Shown: piece by piece, positions 29,446 through 36,754 of the stretch | Layout: the number at the start of each line of letters is the position of its first letter | How positions within the stretch are numbered: the first letter of the stretch is position 1 | Source: Nitrospira defluvii | GTDB taxonomy: Bacteria; Nitrospirota; Nitrospiria; Nitrospirales; Nitrospiraceae | Assembly: GCA_000196815.1 (NCBI GenBank) | Contig: FP929003.1 | Location: forward strand, 2,441,501-2,505,500 | Direction of reading: 5' to 3' | Length of the DNA stretch: 64,000 nt | Translations under genes and position numbers: made by a program | Notes under the pieces: model-generated | Databases searched by the model: none | Told to the model about the DNA's origin: nothing | What the model saw: the letters and a program-made list of their open reading frames with translations, nothing else

Positions 29446-29462
29446 CCCGTGGAGCCCACGAC

Positions 29463-29783
29463 ATGAAGGTACTCACGCTTGCAGATTTTCAGCAGTTCAG
29501 TGCCGAGAAGATGAAGAAGAATAACCTCTTCCAAACCCCGCGCTTTTTTTGCGACATCTATTGCTTTGAACCGGGCCAGGAACAGAAGGGCCACATTCAC
29601 GGCGAGCAGGACAAGGTCTACATTGTGCTGGAAGGGGAAGGGACGTTTCAGGTCGGTTCACACAAGCAGGTGCTGGGACCGGGCCAGGGCACCATGGCTC
29701 CGGCCGGCGATGAGCATGGAGTGAAGAATCACACGGCACAGCGGCTGAAAGTCCTGGTGTTCGTCGCGCCGAATCAGGCCTGA
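29463..29783 (+). CDS. Cupin domain protein
   Basis: 106 residues. A single cupin barrel: motif 1 GHIHGEQDKVYIVLEGEGTFQVG (metal ligands H, H and a downstream acidic residue) and motif 2 GPGQGTMAPAGDEHGVKN (final His). The ATG at 29463 is 17 nt after the SdhE-like stop. Probably a small metal-binding enzyme or sensor; no substrate can be inferred. The co-directional pairing with the SdhE-like gene suggests a shared transcript. Confidence 0.82.
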   Translation: MKVLTLADFQQFSAEKMKKNNLFQTPRFFCDIYCFEPGQEQKGHIHGEQDKVYIVLEGEGTFQVGSHKQVLGPGQGTMAPAGDEHGVKNHTAQRLKVLVFVAPNQA

Positions 29784-29839
29784 CAATCGACAATCGGCGT
29801 TCGTTCCTGTTGTCGAAATCCCGACCGACGCATGCCGTC

Positions 29840-30598
29840 TCATTTTCGGATCGTCAGCGGGGCCGTAACGGTGATGGCCCCGGCAAGGTCGCCCTCCTTG
29901 TGCCCTTCTTTGGGATAGCCGGAGATGTCGAGATCCCCCTTCGGTTCGCCGTGGCAGGCGAGGCAATCCTTGGCGTAATAGATCGGCATGACGACGCGCA
30001 ACGTACTCCCCCCTTCCGTCAGCTCACTGACATAGGCTTCCGCGCGTGGCCTGGCGGAGAGCCATTTCAGCACCGACGCCTCATATTCATCCGGCTCGTT
30101 CTTCGGATTGCGGGGCTCGATGGCCGTCTGTTTCAGGCGCACGTGCGCCGACTTGGAGAAGCGGGCCGAGGCCTGACTCCCATAGGTCGCCGGGATGAAA
30201 TTCTTGTAGCCGATGCCGCGCTGGTTGATGACGACTTGCGCATCCCGCACGACTTCTCGGCTGGCCTGCACCAGCGCAGGTAGAAGTTCTTTTGCCAACG
30301 GCGGGATGAGGATCGAAACCGGCGCGGCGGGCAACGCGGTGAGATCAATCCCGGTCTTGGCCAGAAACTCCCGCACGAGCTGCTGCTCGAACAGTTCCGG
30401 CGTGAACCCCTTCTCACCCTTGTGGGGATCGTCGATCAACACCTGATTCCGTTCGATCACCATGCGGCCGGATTGCAGCAGCTTTGCCAGCAATCGCGCC
30501 GTTTCTTCCGCCTCCGCCCGTTCGACCGCACCGACCATCGACGGTTGAGCGATCAACAACTGGACCGCCGCCAGGATGCAGAACAGGTACCTTTTCAT
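29840..30598 (-). CDS. DUF3365 (Tll0287-like) haem-binding periplasmic protein
   Basis: 252 residues. Signal peptide MKRYLFCILAAVQLLIAQPS, then a DUF3365/Tll0287-like sensor fold with the haem c motif CLACH near the C-terminus (MPIYYAKDCLACHGEPKGDLDISGYPKEGHKEGDLAGAITV). Known relatives are c-type haem sensor or redox proteins related to PAS folds. The ATG at 30598 was chosen for the signal peptide; an upstream frame to 30775 lacks one. It is the last gene of the nirK-side minus-strand run, which suggests a periplasmic redox role. Confidence 0.85.
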   Translation of the reverse strand: MKRYLFCILAAVQLLIAQPSMVGAVERAEAEETARLLAKLLQSGRMVIERNQVLIDDPHKGEKGFTPELFEQQLVREFLAKTGIDLTALPAAPVSILIPPLAKELLPALVQASREVVRDAQVVINQRGIGYKNFIPATYGSQASARFSKSAHVRLKQTAIEPRNPKNEPDEYEASVLKWLSARPRAEAYVSELTEGGSTLRVVMPIYYAKDCLACHGEPKGDLDISGYPKEGHKEGDLAGAITVTAPLTIRK

Positions 30599-30620
30599 GA
30601 CTCTTCTCCTCTCCGGGATG

Positions 30621-31652
30621 TTACGGCTCGACCTTGAGGCGACAGGTTCCTTGCGCGTAATGGGCCGCCATCTGTTCCACGTCAAACGACAACCCCTCCA
30701 GAGAAGCCCGGCGAGGAAAGGCGTACTCCTCGTCAAGCCACCTGGTTCGCATCTCACGGAGCCGGCCCGACTCATCGAGTTTCAACAGCAGGTCGTTCAG
30801 TAACCAGCGCAGGTGGTAACTCTCCTCGGCCACGACCACGCCGTAATCTGCTTTGGTCAAAAACAACGGACGACCGCTTTCGCGTATCAACAGAGACCAG
30901 TCTTTGCGAACCCGTGTGACCATATACTCCAGCACCGGTTGCGCCCCGAGAATCACGTCGATGCGCGGCTCCGCCTGCGAGTCGGCATACTCAAACGCCG
31001 CCGGGAGCGAATCGCACAAAATCAACCGGCGGGGGCTCAAATTTGCCTCGGCATAATAATAGGCGCTGGTTTCGTCCTGGACCGCGATCGTCAATCCGTC
31101 CAGCGCATGGCTGGTCGCCGCCAGCCGGTCGGGACTGGGATGCATCGCCTGCTCCCGAACATTGGCACGGACTCGCTCAAGAACCGCGGGACTGGTCGTG
31201 ATCCCGCTGACCCCACCGCCGTAAAAGTAGGGCAGGGAATAGGCCACACCGGCCCGGGCCGGCGCGGGGGTGTTGATCGCCACGGCGGACATGAACCAAT
31301 CGAGATGCCCTTCATTCAGCAGCCGGAACAGATCCCTGAACCGCACCAGGTGCAAGACCGGGGTCACCGTGCGGCCGCACCGTCGGGATAATTCATCGGT
31401 CATCGCCCGCACTAGTTCCACGTCGAGCCCGGTGACCCGAGCGCCCTCGTCGGTCCAGATCGTCGGGAACACAAACGGACGAAAGGGCTCCATCGCGAGG
31501 CCGACTTGCACCCGTTCACGTTCGCAGATGATATCGACCTTGTTGCCTGACACCGGCCAGACGCGCTCGACCGCGTCGATCAACAGCCCGCACCCGGGAA
31601 GGCACAGACAGAGGACCGCCATCCATCCCACGCGAACCTGCGACGCCCGCAT
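30621..31652 (-). CDS. Family 3 extracellular solute-binding lipoprotein
   Basis: 343 residues. Lipoprotein signal with lipobox LPGC (CLCLPGCGLL). The body is a periplasmic binding protein type 3 fold (VQVGLAMEPFRPFVFPTIWTDEGARVTGLDVELVRAMTDELSRRCG...GHLDWFMSAVAINTPAPARAGVAYSLPYFYGG). No ABC permease or ATPase is beside it, so it may be a sensor or act with a distant transporter. The ATG at 31652 overlaps the previous stop (TGATG), which favours this start over 31682. Confidence 0.82.
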   Translation of the reverse strand: MRASQVRVGWMAVLCLCLPGCGLLIDAVERVWPVSGNKVDIICERERVQVGLAMEPFRPFVFPTIWTDEGARVTGLDVELVRAMTDELSRRCGRTVTPVLHLVRFRDLFRLLNEGHLDWFMSAVAINTPAPARAGVAYSLPYFYGGGVSGITTSPAVLERVRANVREQAMHPSPDRLAATSHALDGLTIAVQDETSAYYYAEANLSPRRLILCDSLPAAFEYADSQAEPRIDVILGAQPVLEYMVTRVRKDWSLLIRESGRPLFLTKADYGVVVAEESYHLRWLLNDLLLKLDESGRLREMRTRWLDEEYAFPRRASLEGLSFDVEQMAAHYAQGTCRLKVEP

Positions 31653-32804: not shown

Positions 32805-33776
32805 TTACTTCGCCGGCAATTCCCACGGCACCATCGGCATCAACGGCGCCGCCTTGGCATCCGGTCCGGCCAGTAACACCGCAATGGCTCCTCGCAACGC
32901 ACCCGTGAGCGAATGGGTCACCAGCGGATAGGCGCCGGCAGATTCCACCACCACGTCGAAGGTGGCCGCGCTGCCCGGTCCCACCACGTAGGTTTGCACG
33001 CCCTTCAGATTATTGGCCGGGTTGCCGCTTTCATAGACGTTGTCCCAAATCTCTCCGATCGGGTGAAACGAGGAAAACTCGTTCGGGCCCGCGTTGACGA
33101 AATAGATCCGCACCCGCTCTCCCGGCTTCGCGTCGAGTTTCCCGCCGCCGGTCACAAACGGGTGGTACTTGAAAATACCGCCGTTGAACATCATGCCGTC
33201 GTACTTGCGATCGAACATCGCCTGCACGTCGTTCGGATTTTTGAAATACTCAGACTGCACCAAGACGTATTCCCGGTCTGCCTTCGGCCAGACTTTGGCG
33301 TTTTTGGGATCCACGATGATGGCGCCGAACATCCCCCGCGCGACGTGCTGGATCATGGGCGGGGCGCCGCAGTGGTAGAAGAACACCCCCGGCTTCTTCG
33401 CCGTGAATGAGAAGCTGTGTGTCTCGCCGGTATTGACGGCCCGGTAGTTCTTCAGGAAGTCGACTTCCGCAGCATGGAAATCCATCGCATGGGGATTCTT
33501 ATTCGTGGCCGGGTTCGTCAAAGTGAAGTTGACGACATCGCCTTCCGTGACCCGCACCACCGGACCGGGGAACTGTCCGTTGAAGGTCCAGGCGGCATAC
33601 TTCTCACCGCCTCCGTCGATCACGATGTCCGTCTCGACTGCGGTCATTTTAATCTCGTGGGTCTTGGCCTGCGCGGACGAGTCCATCCCCGCCAGCAATC
33701 CCAGCGTCATTCCCAGGACGGGCAGAGCGTTGCGCAAGCTGCGTCCCGAGTGGTTGGTCGTTCTCTGTGTGTGCAT
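32805..33776 (-). CDS. nirK: Copper-containing nitrite reductase, NirK
   Basis: 323 residues with signal peptide and two cupredoxin domains. Type 1 copper ligands by alignment to known NirK: H96, C136, H144, M149. Type 2 copper ligands: H101, H135, H288. Catalytic D99 (HAMDFH) and H238 (SFHPIG) are present, so it should be active. It reduces nitrite to NO in the periplasm. The C136-H144 loop (CGAPPMIQH) is short, like the AniA type rather than the longer Alcaligenes-type loop. The gene follows a Crp/Fnr regulator gene, and a perfect inverted repeat lies 121-145 nt upstream of its ATG. Confidence 0.95.
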   Translation of the reverse strand: MHTQRTTNHSGRSLRNALPVLGMTLGLLAGMDSSAQAKTHEIKMTAVETDIVIDGGGEKYAAWTFNGQFPGPVVRVTEGDVVNFTLTNPATNKNPHAMDFHAAEVDFLKNYRAVNTGETHSFSFTAKKPGVFFYHCGAPPMIQHVARGMFGAIIVDPKNAKVWPKADREYVLVQSEYFKNPNDVQAMFDRKYDGMMFNGGIFKYHPFVTGGGKLDAKPGERVRIYFVNAGPNEFSSFHPIGEIWDNVYESGNPANNLKGVQTYVVGPGSAATFDVVVESAGAYPLVTHSLTGALRGAIAVLLAGPDAKAAPLMPMVPWELPAK

Positions 33777-33873
33777 GGTTGCCTCCGATTGTCCCTATGG
33801 TTCACCCGGCGACCGGGAACGCATCGCTCCCGGATCAACATTCGTCGAGATTGAATGCTGCGCCTCTGCCTGC

Positions 33874-33921
33874 ACCATACGGGAGGGCACCAACAATAAA
33901 ACATGACTATTGTCATGTTTT
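33874..33921 (-). promoter_or_regulatory. Putative Crp/Fnr operator and nirK promoter
   Basis: AAAACATGAC (33898-33907), TATT, GTCATGTTTT (33912-33921): a perfect 10-bp inverted repeat with a TGAC-N4-GTCA core, the shape of Crp/Fnr/Dnr operators. On the minus strand the hexamer TATGGT (33874-33879) is centred 33 nt downstream of the dyad centre, matching a class II activated promoter (site at about -41.5 with the -10 box). That would start the nirK RNA near 33868, about 90 nt before the ATG. The regulator gene upstream is the natural candidate. Dyad seen; the promoter is inferred. Confidence 0.7.
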
Positions 33922-33950
33922 GAACAATAACGTCGCTGTCGAGAAAATAA

Positions 33951-34730
33951 TTACGTGGAAGCGAGGAGGCGGAGCTTGGGAAGGTCGCGAATGATGAGGC
34001 GGGCAGCCGTTCCCGACACGAGACGCTCTTTCTTAAACCGCGCCATGATGCGGATGGCGGTTTCAGTCGTGACACCCACCATGTTCGCCATGTCCTGGCG
34101 TGTGAGACGGACGGAGACCCTGATCCCGTTCGGCTCTTGAACCCCGCTTCGTTCTGCGAGGTTCACCAGGAGAGAGGCCAACCGTTGGTCGGCCCGGTCC
34201 AACGCGAGGACCTTGGCTTTTTCCTGCGCTTCATTGAGACGGTTCCCCAGGTACCGGATGACTTCCATGGCGGCATCCGGATTCCCGCGCAACATCTTGA
34301 AGTACGCTTCTTTCTTCATCCGCAGCACACTGACATCCCCCATGGGCTGAGCCGTGCCCGGATGAGAGGCGCCGTCGAAAGCCGAGGCATCGCAACAAAA
34401 CAGATCGCCTGGCATGAGCACTTTCAGCGTGCACTCCTTCCCGTCGAGGGACGATTTGACGCACTTCACCGACCCTTCCTTGACGATATGAAAGTACTCG
34501 GTGGGATCGCCCTCACGGAAGATGTACTGCCCCTTGCCGTAGCGGGTTTCCGTCATTTCGCCCAGGACCTTCTGACGATCCTGGGCGCTGAGGATCTGGA
34601 GGAGGGGAATCTGATTCAACCCGGCAGGGAAGGCAGGGCCGGATTGTTCAGCGGGAGGCTGTTTTAACGATTTCTTTGGCCGCTTCGACAATCGAGCGTA
34701 CTCCAATACCAAAATGATCGACGAGCTCAT
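33951..34730 (-). CDS. Crp/Fnr family transcriptional regulator
   Basis: 259 residues from the ATG at 34730, which follows GGGAGG; the first 27 residues re-read the end of the transketolase gene, so a shorter TTG start is possible. The cyclic-nucleotide-binding-like domain (about 45-160: ETRYGKGQYIFREGDPTEYFHIVKEGSVKCVKSSLDGKECTLKVLMPGDLF) is followed by a dimer helix and a winged helix (SVRLTRQDMANMVGVTTETAIRIMARFKKERLV). The N-terminal cysteine cluster of oxygen-sensing FNR is absent, so it is not a classic Fe-S FNR. The ligand is unknown; NO or redox control of nirK is plausible. It lies between transketolase and nirK. Confidence 0.88.
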   Translation of the reverse strand: MSSSIILVLEYARLSKRPKKSLKQPPAEQSGPAFPAGLNQIPLLQILSAQDRQKVLGEMTETRYGKGQYIFREGDPTEYFHIVKEGSVKCVKSSLDGKECTLKVLMPGDLFCCDASAFDGASHPGTAQPMGDVSVLRMKKEAYFKMLRGNPDAAMEVIRYLGNRLNEAQEKAKVLALDRADQRLASLLVNLAERSGVQEPNGIRVSVRLTRQDMANMVGVTTETAIRIMARFKKERLVSGTAARLIIRDLPKLRLLAST

Positions 34731-36534
34731 CCGGCCTCCCGCTGCGCGGGATTTCCCGAACGGCCAATTTGTGCACCCGCACACCTTCCGATGCGAGCGC
34801 GCTCAAGACGGCATCGCCGATGCCTCCGTGTGCATAGTGGTCCTCGACCGTCAGGAATCGTCCGCCGGTCGCCCGCGCACAATCGAGCAACGTGGCGCGA
34901 TCCACCGGCACGATGCTGTAGAGGTCGAGCACGCGGGTCGTGATACCCGCCGCCTTCAATTGATCATGGGCTTTTAAGGCCTCGAACAACGTCACTCCGG
35001 CCGCGACGATCGTCAGCTGGTCGGCGGCACTCTGCCGGACCACCTTGGAGCCTCCAATCTTAAACTGCTCATCCAGGCCATAAATCACCGGCGTCTTGGG
35101 GCGACCGGCGCGGAGGTATACCATGCCCTTGTGAGCAGCCGCCGCTTCCACCAGTTTGTACATCGAGAGCGCGTCGGACGGGTACAGTACCGTCACACCG
35201 GGCTGCGCCGACATCATCGCCAGGTCTTCAAGCCCCATCTGCGAGGGGCCGTCTTCACCGATGCTCACACCGACGTGCGTCCCCACCAGTTTGATGTTCG
35301 ACTGGCTGATCGCCGCCATTCGAATGAAATCGTAAGCCCGCGTGAAGAACGCGGCGAACGTCGCCACAAAGGGAATCTTTCCGCAGGCGGCGATACCGGC
35401 CGCGGCGCCCAACATGTTTTGCTCCGCGATAAAGTTTTCCAGGAAACGGTCCGGAAACCGCTTTCCAAACTTGTCACTATAGGTGGAATTCTTCACATCC
35501 GCATCCAGCGCGACCACCTGCGAGTCGGCCTCGCCGAGCGCCAGAAGAGCGGCTCCGAATGCTTCCCGTGTCGCCGCCGAGTCACCGAGTTTGTACGGCG
35601 GAGGCGCCATCGTTCCCTTGGCAGGGGCCGCGGCTTTGACGGCTGTCGGCATCGGAATCTGCGCTTGCGTCGAGCCGGGCTTGAGTTGCCGCGTCAGTTC
35701 ATCCAAGGCCTTCTGGGTTTCTTCGCCCTTCTTCATGGGCTTTCCATGCCATTCCGGATGATTTTCCATGAAGGAGATGCCGCGCCCCTTGAAAGTCTTC
35801 GCCAACAACACCGTCGGCCGCCCCTTGGTCCGCGCCGCTTCCTCAAACGCTGCCACAAGGGCGCCGATATCGTGACCGTCCACCACGATGGCATGCCAGC
35901 CGAACCCGGCCCATCGGGCACGATAGGCTTCCATGTCGTGCTGCAACATCGTAGGGTCGCTTTGTCCCAGCCGGTTCACGTCCACAATCGCGCACAGGTT
36001 ATCCAACGCCGCGTGCCGCGCGACTTCCGCCGCTTCCCACACGGAACCTTCGACGGACTCGCCATCTCCCATCAACACATAGGTCCGGTAGTCGGTCTTA
36101 TCGATCGATTTGGCATTGAATGCGAGCCCCACTCCGGCGGGCAGGCCTTGCCCCAACGAGCCGGTCGCCATGTCCACGAAGGAAAGGCGGGGCGTCGGAT
36201 GACCTTCGAGATCGGACCCGAGCGTGCGCAGTTTGAGCAATTCTGATTTGGGAAACAGCCCGGCTTCCGCCCAGGCCGCATAGAGCAGGGGCGCCGCATG
36301 GCCTTTCGAGAGGACGAAGCGATCACTATTGGGCAGTTTCGGATTCTTCGGATCGTATCGCATCACGGAGAAAAACAGGACGGCAACGATATCTGCGGCC
36401 GAACAACAGCTGGAGGGATGTCCGCTCCCGGCTTCAGTCGTCGCCTTCACACTGTCCATGCGAAGGTGCGTCGCCTTATTGGCCAAAGCGGTCAGAAGGT
36501 CAGGCGTGGCGGTAGAGGCAGCAGAGGCAGTCAT
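34648..36534 (-). CDS. tkt: Transketolase
   Basis: 628 residues. The N-terminal thiamine diphosphate domain contains SGHPSSCCSAADIVAVLFF, SKGHAAPLLYAAWAEAG and the GDG motif with Mg site (MGDGESVEGSVWEAAEVARHAALDNLCAIVDVNRLGQ). The middle pyrimidine-binding domain contains FIAEQNMLGAAAGIAACGKIPFVATFAAFFTRAYDFIR, followed by a C-terminal domain. It exchanges two-carbon units in the pentose phosphate route. The ATG at 36534 has AAGGAT upstream and the family start; the frame to 36744 is an extension through the divergent promoter region. There is an internal Ala/Pro-rich linker at about 300-315. The stop overlaps the regulator gene start region by 83 nt. Confidence 0.94.
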   Translation of the reverse strand: MTASAASTATPDLLTALANKATHLRMDSVKATTEAGSGHPSSCCSAADIVAVLFFSVMRYDPKNPKLPNSDRFVLSKGHAAPLLYAAWAEAGLFPKSELLKLRTLGSDLEGHPTPRLSFVDMATGSLGQGLPAGVGLAFNAKSIDKTDYRTYVLMGDGESVEGSVWEAAEVARHAALDNLCAIVDVNRLGQSDPTMLQHDMEAYRARWAGFGWHAIVVDGHDIGALVAAFEEAARTKGRPTVLLAKTFKGRGISFMENHPEWHGKPMKKGEETQKALDELTRQLKPGSTQAQIPMPTAVKAAAPAKGTMAPPPYKLGDSAATREAFGAALLALGEADSQVVALDADVKNSTYSDKFGKRFPDRFLENFIAEQNMLGAAAGIAACGKIPFVATFAAFFTRAYDFIRMAAISQSNIKLVGTHVGVSIGEDGPSQMGLEDLAMMSAQPGVTVLYPSDALSMYKLVEAAAAHKGMVYLRAGRPKTPVIYGLDEQFKIGGSKVVRQSAADQLTIVAAGVTLFEALKAHDQLKAAGITTRVLDLYSIVPVDRATLLDCARATGGRFLTVEDHYAHGGIGDAVLSALASEGVRVHKLAVREIPRSGRPDELVDHFGIGVRSIVEAAKEIVKTASR

Positions 36535-36694
36535 GCGCGATCCTTTCAGGATGGGAGCTGATAAATTCCGGGTGATTTGGATGATCAGTGAGAGGGACGG
36601 GCCGCCTCTCAACGGCACGAAGCTAACAAATGGCATGCAGGGAGTCAATGAAGGCAGTCGTCGCGCAGCACAGGCCACTCGGGGCACAGAATTC

Positions 36695-36723
36695 TTGACA
36701 CGGTACGGGCAACTCGTTAAGAT
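36695..36723 (+). promoter_or_regulatory. Promoter of the pyr operon
   Basis: TTGACA (36695-36700), a 17-nt spacer and TAAGAT (36718-36723): consensus -35 and a 4/6 -10 at ideal spacing. The start of transcription would be near 36730, just before the PyrR-binding loop. It lies in the gap between the divergent transketolase gene and pyrR. Confidence 0.7.
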
Positions 36724-36743
36724 CGGCTCGCCTTTAACGCTCA

Positions 36744-36754
36744 TCCTGTGAGGT
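36744..36754 (+). promoter_or_regulatory. PyrR-binding loop in the pyr leader RNA
   Basis: UCCUGUGAGGU matches the core UCCNGNGAGGY of the PyrR-binding (anti-antiterminator) loop known from Bacillus. It lies about 15 nt into the predicted transcript and 54 nt before the attenuator. Its AGGUG can instead pair with CACCU of the terminator's 5' arm, giving a plausible antiterminator. PyrR with UMP would free the terminator. Confidence 0.72.

Follow-up and report, generated by a model that had tools for sequence, protein, structure and literature searches.

Upstream of nirK, taken as the gene of the nitric-oxide-forming copper nitrite reductase, a Nitrospira genome assembled into a single contig of 4,317,083 bp carries an inverted repeat which very probably represents an operator: nirK would be transcribed from a class II promoter activated by a Crp/Fnr-type protein, namely the regulator encoded immediately upstream, and this regulator would bind the repeat. 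The comparison of related genomes demonstrates, at the level of sequence, that this operator is conserved, that its distance to a −10-like hexamer is kept, that it is placed almost exclusively at nirK genes and that it occurs together with the regulator gene. The same comparison points to binding by the regulator, to activation rather than repression and to the RNA start given below. In the proposed mechanism, a dimer of the regulator would occupy the dyad at about −41.5/−42.5 and overlap the −35 region, which offers no good sigma-70 hexamer; once bound, the dimer would recruit RNA polymerase to the TATGGT hexamer.

The dyad and its surroundings

In the window, i.e., the whole 64-kb stretch of DNA that was analysed, the minus-strand gene order is tkt - crp - dyad - nirK, with both nirK and the regulator gene (crp) on the minus strand (Table 1). 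The intergenic region between crp and nirK spans 174 bp; the dyad starts 29 bp past the crp stop codon, and its centre is located 133 bp before the ATG of nirK.

Table 1 Features of the nirK region in the window
Feature	Coordinates	Strand	Remarks
nirK (nirK1), gene of putative copper nitrite reductase (323 aa)	32805..33776	-	GGAGG 5 nt before ATG
-10-like hexamer TATGGT of putative nirK promoter	33874..33879	-	centre 33876.5
Putative operator AAAACATGAC-AATA-GTCATGTTTT (minus-strand reading)	33898..33921	-	centre 33909.5; consensus AAACATGAY-N4-RTCATGTTT
A/T-rich element ATTGTT, directly upstream of dyad	33923..33928	-	from conservation profile
Crp/Fnr-type regulator gene, 246 aa	33951..34691	-	proposed TTG start 34691; cNMP_binding and HTH_Crp_2 domains
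Transketolase gene tkt	34648..36744	-	upstream of regulator gene, slight overlap; conserved neighbour

The nirK1 product matches the Cu-oxidase Pfam domains and displays, as judged by eye, the type 1 and type 2 copper ligand motifs NPHAMDFH, FFYHCGAPPMIQHVARGM, FHPIGEIW and VTHSL; against TIGR02376 it scores 197.5 bits (E 3.6e-58), the equivalog cut-off being 296.3. Translation of the regulator gene probably begins at TTG 34691 and not at 34730 or 34784, because a GGAG is positioned 8 nt upstream of this codon and the resulting N-terminus, MSKRPKK..., has similar residues in relatives. Downstream of nirK, at about 29450-30775 of the window, two genes encode a small cupin protein and a DUF3365-like protein with a CxxCH motif, and such neighbours recur near the regulator in relatives (L187; the cupin also in another family of the same order, treated below as the second family).

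The perfect 10-bp dyad described upstream of nirK by the first-pass annotation, AAAACATGAC-TATT-GTCATGTTTT, is present as claimed, and the distance from its centre to that of the minus-strand TATGGT is indeed 33 nt. A search for its core, CATGAC-N4-GTCATG, as the same annotation had proposed, returned a single exact occurrence in the 4.32-Mb genome. Within the window, the dyad is the sole perfect 10-bp inverted repeat with a spacer of 3-8 nt. This uniqueness is weak evidence, however, since order-1 Markov shuffles of the window yield 0.7 such repeats on average (maximum 3); the strong evidence is conservation, which also led to the rejection of a chance palindrome. No −35/−10 sigma-70 pair was recognised in the promoter region of the window.

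Conservation, promoter geometry and targets

Altogether, 80 nirK loci from named genomes were compared, in 43 of which an orthologue of the regulator (61-99% identity) directly precedes nirK; together with the window, these relatives make up 44 aligned crp-linked loci. Loss of the dyad upstream of nirK orthologues had been named beforehand as a finding that would overturn the original proposal, and the dyad is retained between crp and nirK in 44/44 of the regulator-linked loci. Its consensus is AAACATGAY-N4-RTCATGTTT, with nine invariant arm positions and a spacer of 4 bp in every locus, and the weakest site (L049) carries four mismatches. Most arm columns reach 1.3-2 bits, with 1.0 at the C/T position, and most flanking columns stay below 0.5 bit. 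At nirK genes without the regulator, whose products share about 65-75% identity with NirK1, the operator was not found. It is likewise absent where only a 42% identical regulator homologue adjoins nirK (L077 being Nitrospira sp. UW-LDO-01). In L204 (1562-1598) and L205 (about 1386-1422), the stretch that separates the regulator gene from nirK contains a perfect 18-1-18 palindrome, AATCTAATTAGATACATG-G-CATGTATCTAATTAGATT.

The spacing between dyad and promoter is equally well kept. In 44/44 nirK1 loci, a TANNNT hexamer starts at +29 or +30 (0-based), counted rightwards from the centre of the dyad, and 41/44 have the TATNNT form; other offsets average 0.35 loci; at nirK2 genes, a second type of nirK treated below, the hexamer occupies offset 29 or 30 in 11/11 sites. 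Operator and −10 centres are thus 32-33 bp apart without a good −35 hexamer, which is the arrangement of a class II promoter as far as sequence can tell. The class II geometry originally proposed, with the site at −41.5, agrees with a −10-like hexamer within one base of the required spacing in all 44 loci. Because the site is taken to lie at −41.5, the nirK RNA is predicted to start at about 33867-33868, leaving a leader of approximately 91 nt. In addition, an A/T-rich block with consensus ATTTTT spans positions −19 to −14 relative to the centre of the dyad (A in 80% at −19, T in 59-75% at −18 to −14), corresponding to about −55 to −61 of the promoter. In class II promoters, the alpha-CTD of RNA polymerase usually contacts the region of about −55 to −61, and the function of the block is possibly that of such an alpha-CTD/UP contact.

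The genome encodes a second nirK (nirK2; G000:C1:4189808-4190725, L101:451-1461), which is located outside the window at a distance of 1.7 Mb. Its 336-aa frame is 62% identical to NirK1 in the aligned part and shows the copper-ligand motifs by eye. The best other operator match of the genome, AAACATGACAATTGTCATATTG, lies upstream of this gene, with TATCCT at offset 30; nirK2 is found downstream of an M20-peptidase-like gene, and no crp accompanies its site. Across the genus (29 genomes), 35/35 sites with at most two mismatches are positioned directly upstream of nirK1 or nirK2, as judged from coordinates compared by hand, and the reversed-pattern control gives one site. For the family, the search gave 96 sites in total, against 6 for the control. 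Three more nirK2 genes possess sites with 3-4 mismatches and the hexamer at offset 30. The operator was not found at L202 and L203, two copies of nirK2 that belong to further genera within the family. Hence, the operator appears to be close to nirK-specific and would serve nirK1 as well as the unlinked nirK2. A wider regulon in the own genome was considered and rejected, as only one extra site with three mismatches was obtained versus one in the reversed-pattern control. Autoregulation via the same motif was discarded as well, given that no second site with up to three mismatches occurs near crp or tkt in this genome. A few sites are situated away from nirK. One of them, in G059 (L193:1522-2080), is an operator with two mismatches followed by TATCTT at offset 29 and a gene for a 141-aa ferredoxin:thioredoxin-reductase-like protein, possibly an extra target in this one genome.

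The occurrence of the site also follows that of the regulator. The family was sampled with 147 genomes, and sites with up to two mismatches are present in 74/82 genomes with the regulator gene and in 6/65 without it (Fisher p 9e-25, a value which ignores shared ancestry and therefore describes the pattern without testing independent events). Eight genomes have the regulator but no match; five of these hold a version with 3-6 mismatches and a −10 at offset 29/30, and in G103 and G128 the regulator is represented by a homologue of only 42% identity; G089 was left out of this reading of intergenic regions. Four of the six site-only genomes have their sites on contigs other than that of nirK, one is without a nirK match and one (G096) is unplaced. 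The link between the adjoining Crp/Fnr protein and nirK, as put forward by the first-pass annotation, thus gains support from both the unlinked nirK2 site and this co-occurrence.

With these data at hand, other explanations of the dyad can be weighed. Its position 29 bp after the crp stop codon would suit an intrinsic terminator of crp, composed of a hairpin and a T-run; a terminator scan does report the dyad on the minus strand, and in all linked loci the dyad centre is found 17-48 bp past the crp stop and is followed by a T-rich tail. As a hairpin, however, it contains only three G-C pairs and has a fold z-score of −1.67, and its arm letters are conserved beyond what pairing would demand. 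Moreover, nirK2 is preceded by this sequence although crp is not encoded nearby, the spacer length never departs from 4 bp, 10/44 loci contain an unpairable arm position and the −10 hexamer keeps a fixed distance from the dyad; together, these points argue so strongly against a crp terminator that this reading, which is scarcely credible, was rejected. It is also very improbable that the dyad is bound by a different Crp/Fnr protein and that the neighbouring gene is a mere passenger. Two further Crp/Fnr proteins are encoded in the genome, and proteins of this type can share sites. Against this, site and orthologue co-occur over the 147 genomes while genomes that lack the two still retain other Crp/Fnr paralogues, and the regulator gene stays in place where the adjoining nirK belongs to another clade or is replaced.

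If the adjacent regulator is the binding protein, it could still act as a repressor, as the site overlaps the expected −35 region and might occlude RNA polymerase at nirK. Yet repression would not need a −10 spacing that is fixed to one base in loci drawn from across the order, no promoter-like −35/−10 pair was found in the region, and the site takes the position of a class II activator, all of which makes a repressor very unlikely. Activation of nirK by the regulator encoded next to it is therefore the preferred reading.

The association extends beyond nirK1. In the second family, 8/8 regulator homologues examined have a NirK encoded close by that belongs to a different clade (35-40% identity), with transketolase upstream in 4/8 loci; TGAY-N4-RTCA sites are present in 7/8 loci, four of which have TANNNT at offset 29/30. 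Within the own family, the operator of G051 precedes genes for a cytochrome and for a NirK of 33% identity (named by eye). In G097, the place of nirK beside operator and regulator is taken by genes for a cupredoxin/propeller protein and a c-type cytochrome, again named by eye. On this sampling, the regulator follows NirK and not one particular NirK gene. Three loci (L187:846-2625, L188:3022-5292 and L189:3324-5601) contain operator and regulator but lack nirK1. Behind the operator and regulator of such nirK1-less loci, inspection by eye identified a c-type cytochrome with a cupredoxin/YVTN-propeller protein, an other-clade NirK or a truncated-haemoglobin-like frame, and these genes are candidates for co-regulation. 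One genus of the second family (L232, L233, L234) differs in displaying the recognition helix EET(A/T)VR and the FNR-like intergenic site TTGATCCAYATCAA, and no −10 at offset 29/30 was seen in these three loci; this pairing suggests that helix and operator may have co-evolved.

The regulator and its signal

Membership of the regulator in the Crp/Fnr superfamily is evident from its matches to PF00027 (E 3e-18) and PF13545 (E 5e-18), both above cut-off. The AlphaFold model (pLDDT 83.9, pTM 0.67) has the expected fold and is less sure in the sensor loops; therefore, no claim on metal geometry is made. Comparison of the predicted fold with GlxR, CRP and FNR gives Z-scores of 25-27, and as the top ranks fall within about two Z units, no choice among subfamilies is made on this basis. 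The recognition helix reads TTETAIR. A published rule relates helix residues to site bases, pairing Glu181 with A6 of TGA, and Arg180 with a G in the third position of the site (PMC1274295). The T-E-T-A-I-R helix fits this rule, as it has Glu at CRP position 181 together with TGA in the site, and neither Arg180 nor G at position 3.

Profiles of individual subfamilies are far from being matched: the regulator reaches 70.6 bits against a cut-off of 228 for the FNR family PRK11161 and 67.7 bits against 266 for the CRP NCBIfam, and its scores for the NCBIfam families FixK, NtcA and FtrB are likewise far below the cut-offs. FNR binds its [4Fe-4S] cluster via four cysteines, three of them N-terminal and one at position 122 in E. 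coli. The first-pass annotation had noted the lack of the N-terminal ones, and no conserved N-terminal Cys exists among 56 orthologues; the equivalent of position 122 in E. coli FNR appears to be Leu in the regulator. In cAMP-activated CRP proteins, the phosphate-binding cassette has the form G-E-L ... R-S/T-A. In the alignment of the regulator with GlxR, Cys-Cys-Asp replaces Gly-Glu, and the Arg of the cassette is missing. With these residues absent, both FNR-type oxygen sensing and cAMP binding were rejected as the signal.

Instead, a Cys / Cys-Cys / His set stands out in the sensor domain, comprising Cys77, Cys99, Cys100 and His110 in TTG numbering (108, 130, 131 and 141 from GTG 34784), which is invariant in 36/36 aligned regulators and in eight order-level ones. 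In seven homologues from other families, the nearest among those examined, these positions read Ile/Val/Leu - Gly - Gly/Ala - Tyr, and no nirK was seen near them in the regions fetched. As this would depend on the rooting of the regulator tree, the Cys-bearing regulators are not claimed as one clade. Because the FNR cysteines and the cAMP cassette are absent while the Cys / Cys-Cys / His set is invariant, the signal is most likely a nitrogen oxide or redox signal, which would be perceived by these residues directly or through a bound cofactor. More tentatively, and with confidence slightly short of even, these proteins may make up a separate, order-wide Crp/Fnr subclass in Nitrospirales (Cys / Cys-Cys / His-Pro-Gly), which would be tied to NirK of any clade, read a nitrogen-oxide, redox or copper signal via those residues and control a nearly single-gene (nirK) regulon.

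Relation to earlier work and known systems

nirK has been reported in all Nitrospira genomes analysed, and its role has been called undetermined or unclear (PMC6606698, PMC6251164, PMC3578206). With operator, promoter and regulator defined, the role of NirK in nitrite oxidisers becomes testable via the signal which drives regulator binding, and the Cys / Cys-Cys / His signature provides the residues to mutate first. Moreover, the operator marks nirK promoters across a bacterial order and can be used as a search key for nirK-co-regulated genes such as those of the c-type cytochrome, the cupredoxin/propeller protein and the truncated-haemoglobin-like frame in some relatives. A genome study from 2017 mentioned that nirK is preceded by 'Fnr' in several genomes, among them those of N. 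defluvii and N. moscoviensis, and suggested control (PMC5596200). In a meta-regulon study from 2021, a Crp/Fnr protein of an N. defluvii-like genome was labelled NnrR, and the search motif was drawn from Rhodobacter and enterobacteria (PMC8510549). A literature search that covered only a minority of subscription papers yielded no earlier description of the operator or its geometry, of nirK2 as a second target, of the linkage across the order or of the Cys signature.

Among known systems, NsrR of Nitrosomonas is likewise a regulator dedicated to nirK in a nitrifier, but it is a nitrite-sensitive repressor of the Rrf2 family with a different motif (PMC1274295). Class II CRP/FNR promoters of E. 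coli share with the present one a two-fold symmetric site of the TGA-N-TCA type near −41.5, a −10 hexamer, the lack of a good −35 and an A/T-rich stretch at about −58, whereas the half-site here is ATGAY and the target set is nearly nirK-only. HcpR of delta-proteobacteria (wyTTGACnnnnGTCAArw) has the TGAC-N4-GTCA core and the spacer in common with this operator, yet its half-site is TTGAC instead of ATGAY and its targets are hcp/frdX, not nirK; the HcpR of P. gingivalis is a haem-based NO sensor.

The haem CO sensor CooA is among the best PDB profile matches to the regulator. The haem ligands of CooA are Cys75 and His77 (R. rubrum numbering) together with the N-terminal Pro. In the alignment, the leading residue of the Cys-Cys pair falls on the cysteine two residues before the haem His of CooA, but the position of this His is occupied by Asp in the alignment with 2fmy, so that of these two ligand positions only the Cys is kept; the regulator furthermore contains an 8-residue insertion with His-Pro-Gly, and no CO genes were seen near it.

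DNR senses NO in a haem-dependent manner, and the profile match of the regulator to the DNR structure 3dkw (E 5e-21) indicates superfamily kinship only. DNR/NNR and NnrR, the nitric-oxide-responsive regulators of denitrification, are also Crp/Fnr proteins controlling nitrite reductase genes; the regulator described here is distinguished from them by its invariant Cys / Cys-Cys / His set. Additionally, the recognition motif of NnrR, ctTTGcgnnnncgCAAag (PMC1274295), is not matched by the conserved operator AAACATGAYnnnnRTCATGTTT. Activation of nitrite reductase genes by Crp/Fnr proteins is already well known from DNR and NnrR, so that the novelty consists in the operator and the sensor signature which this system has of its own.
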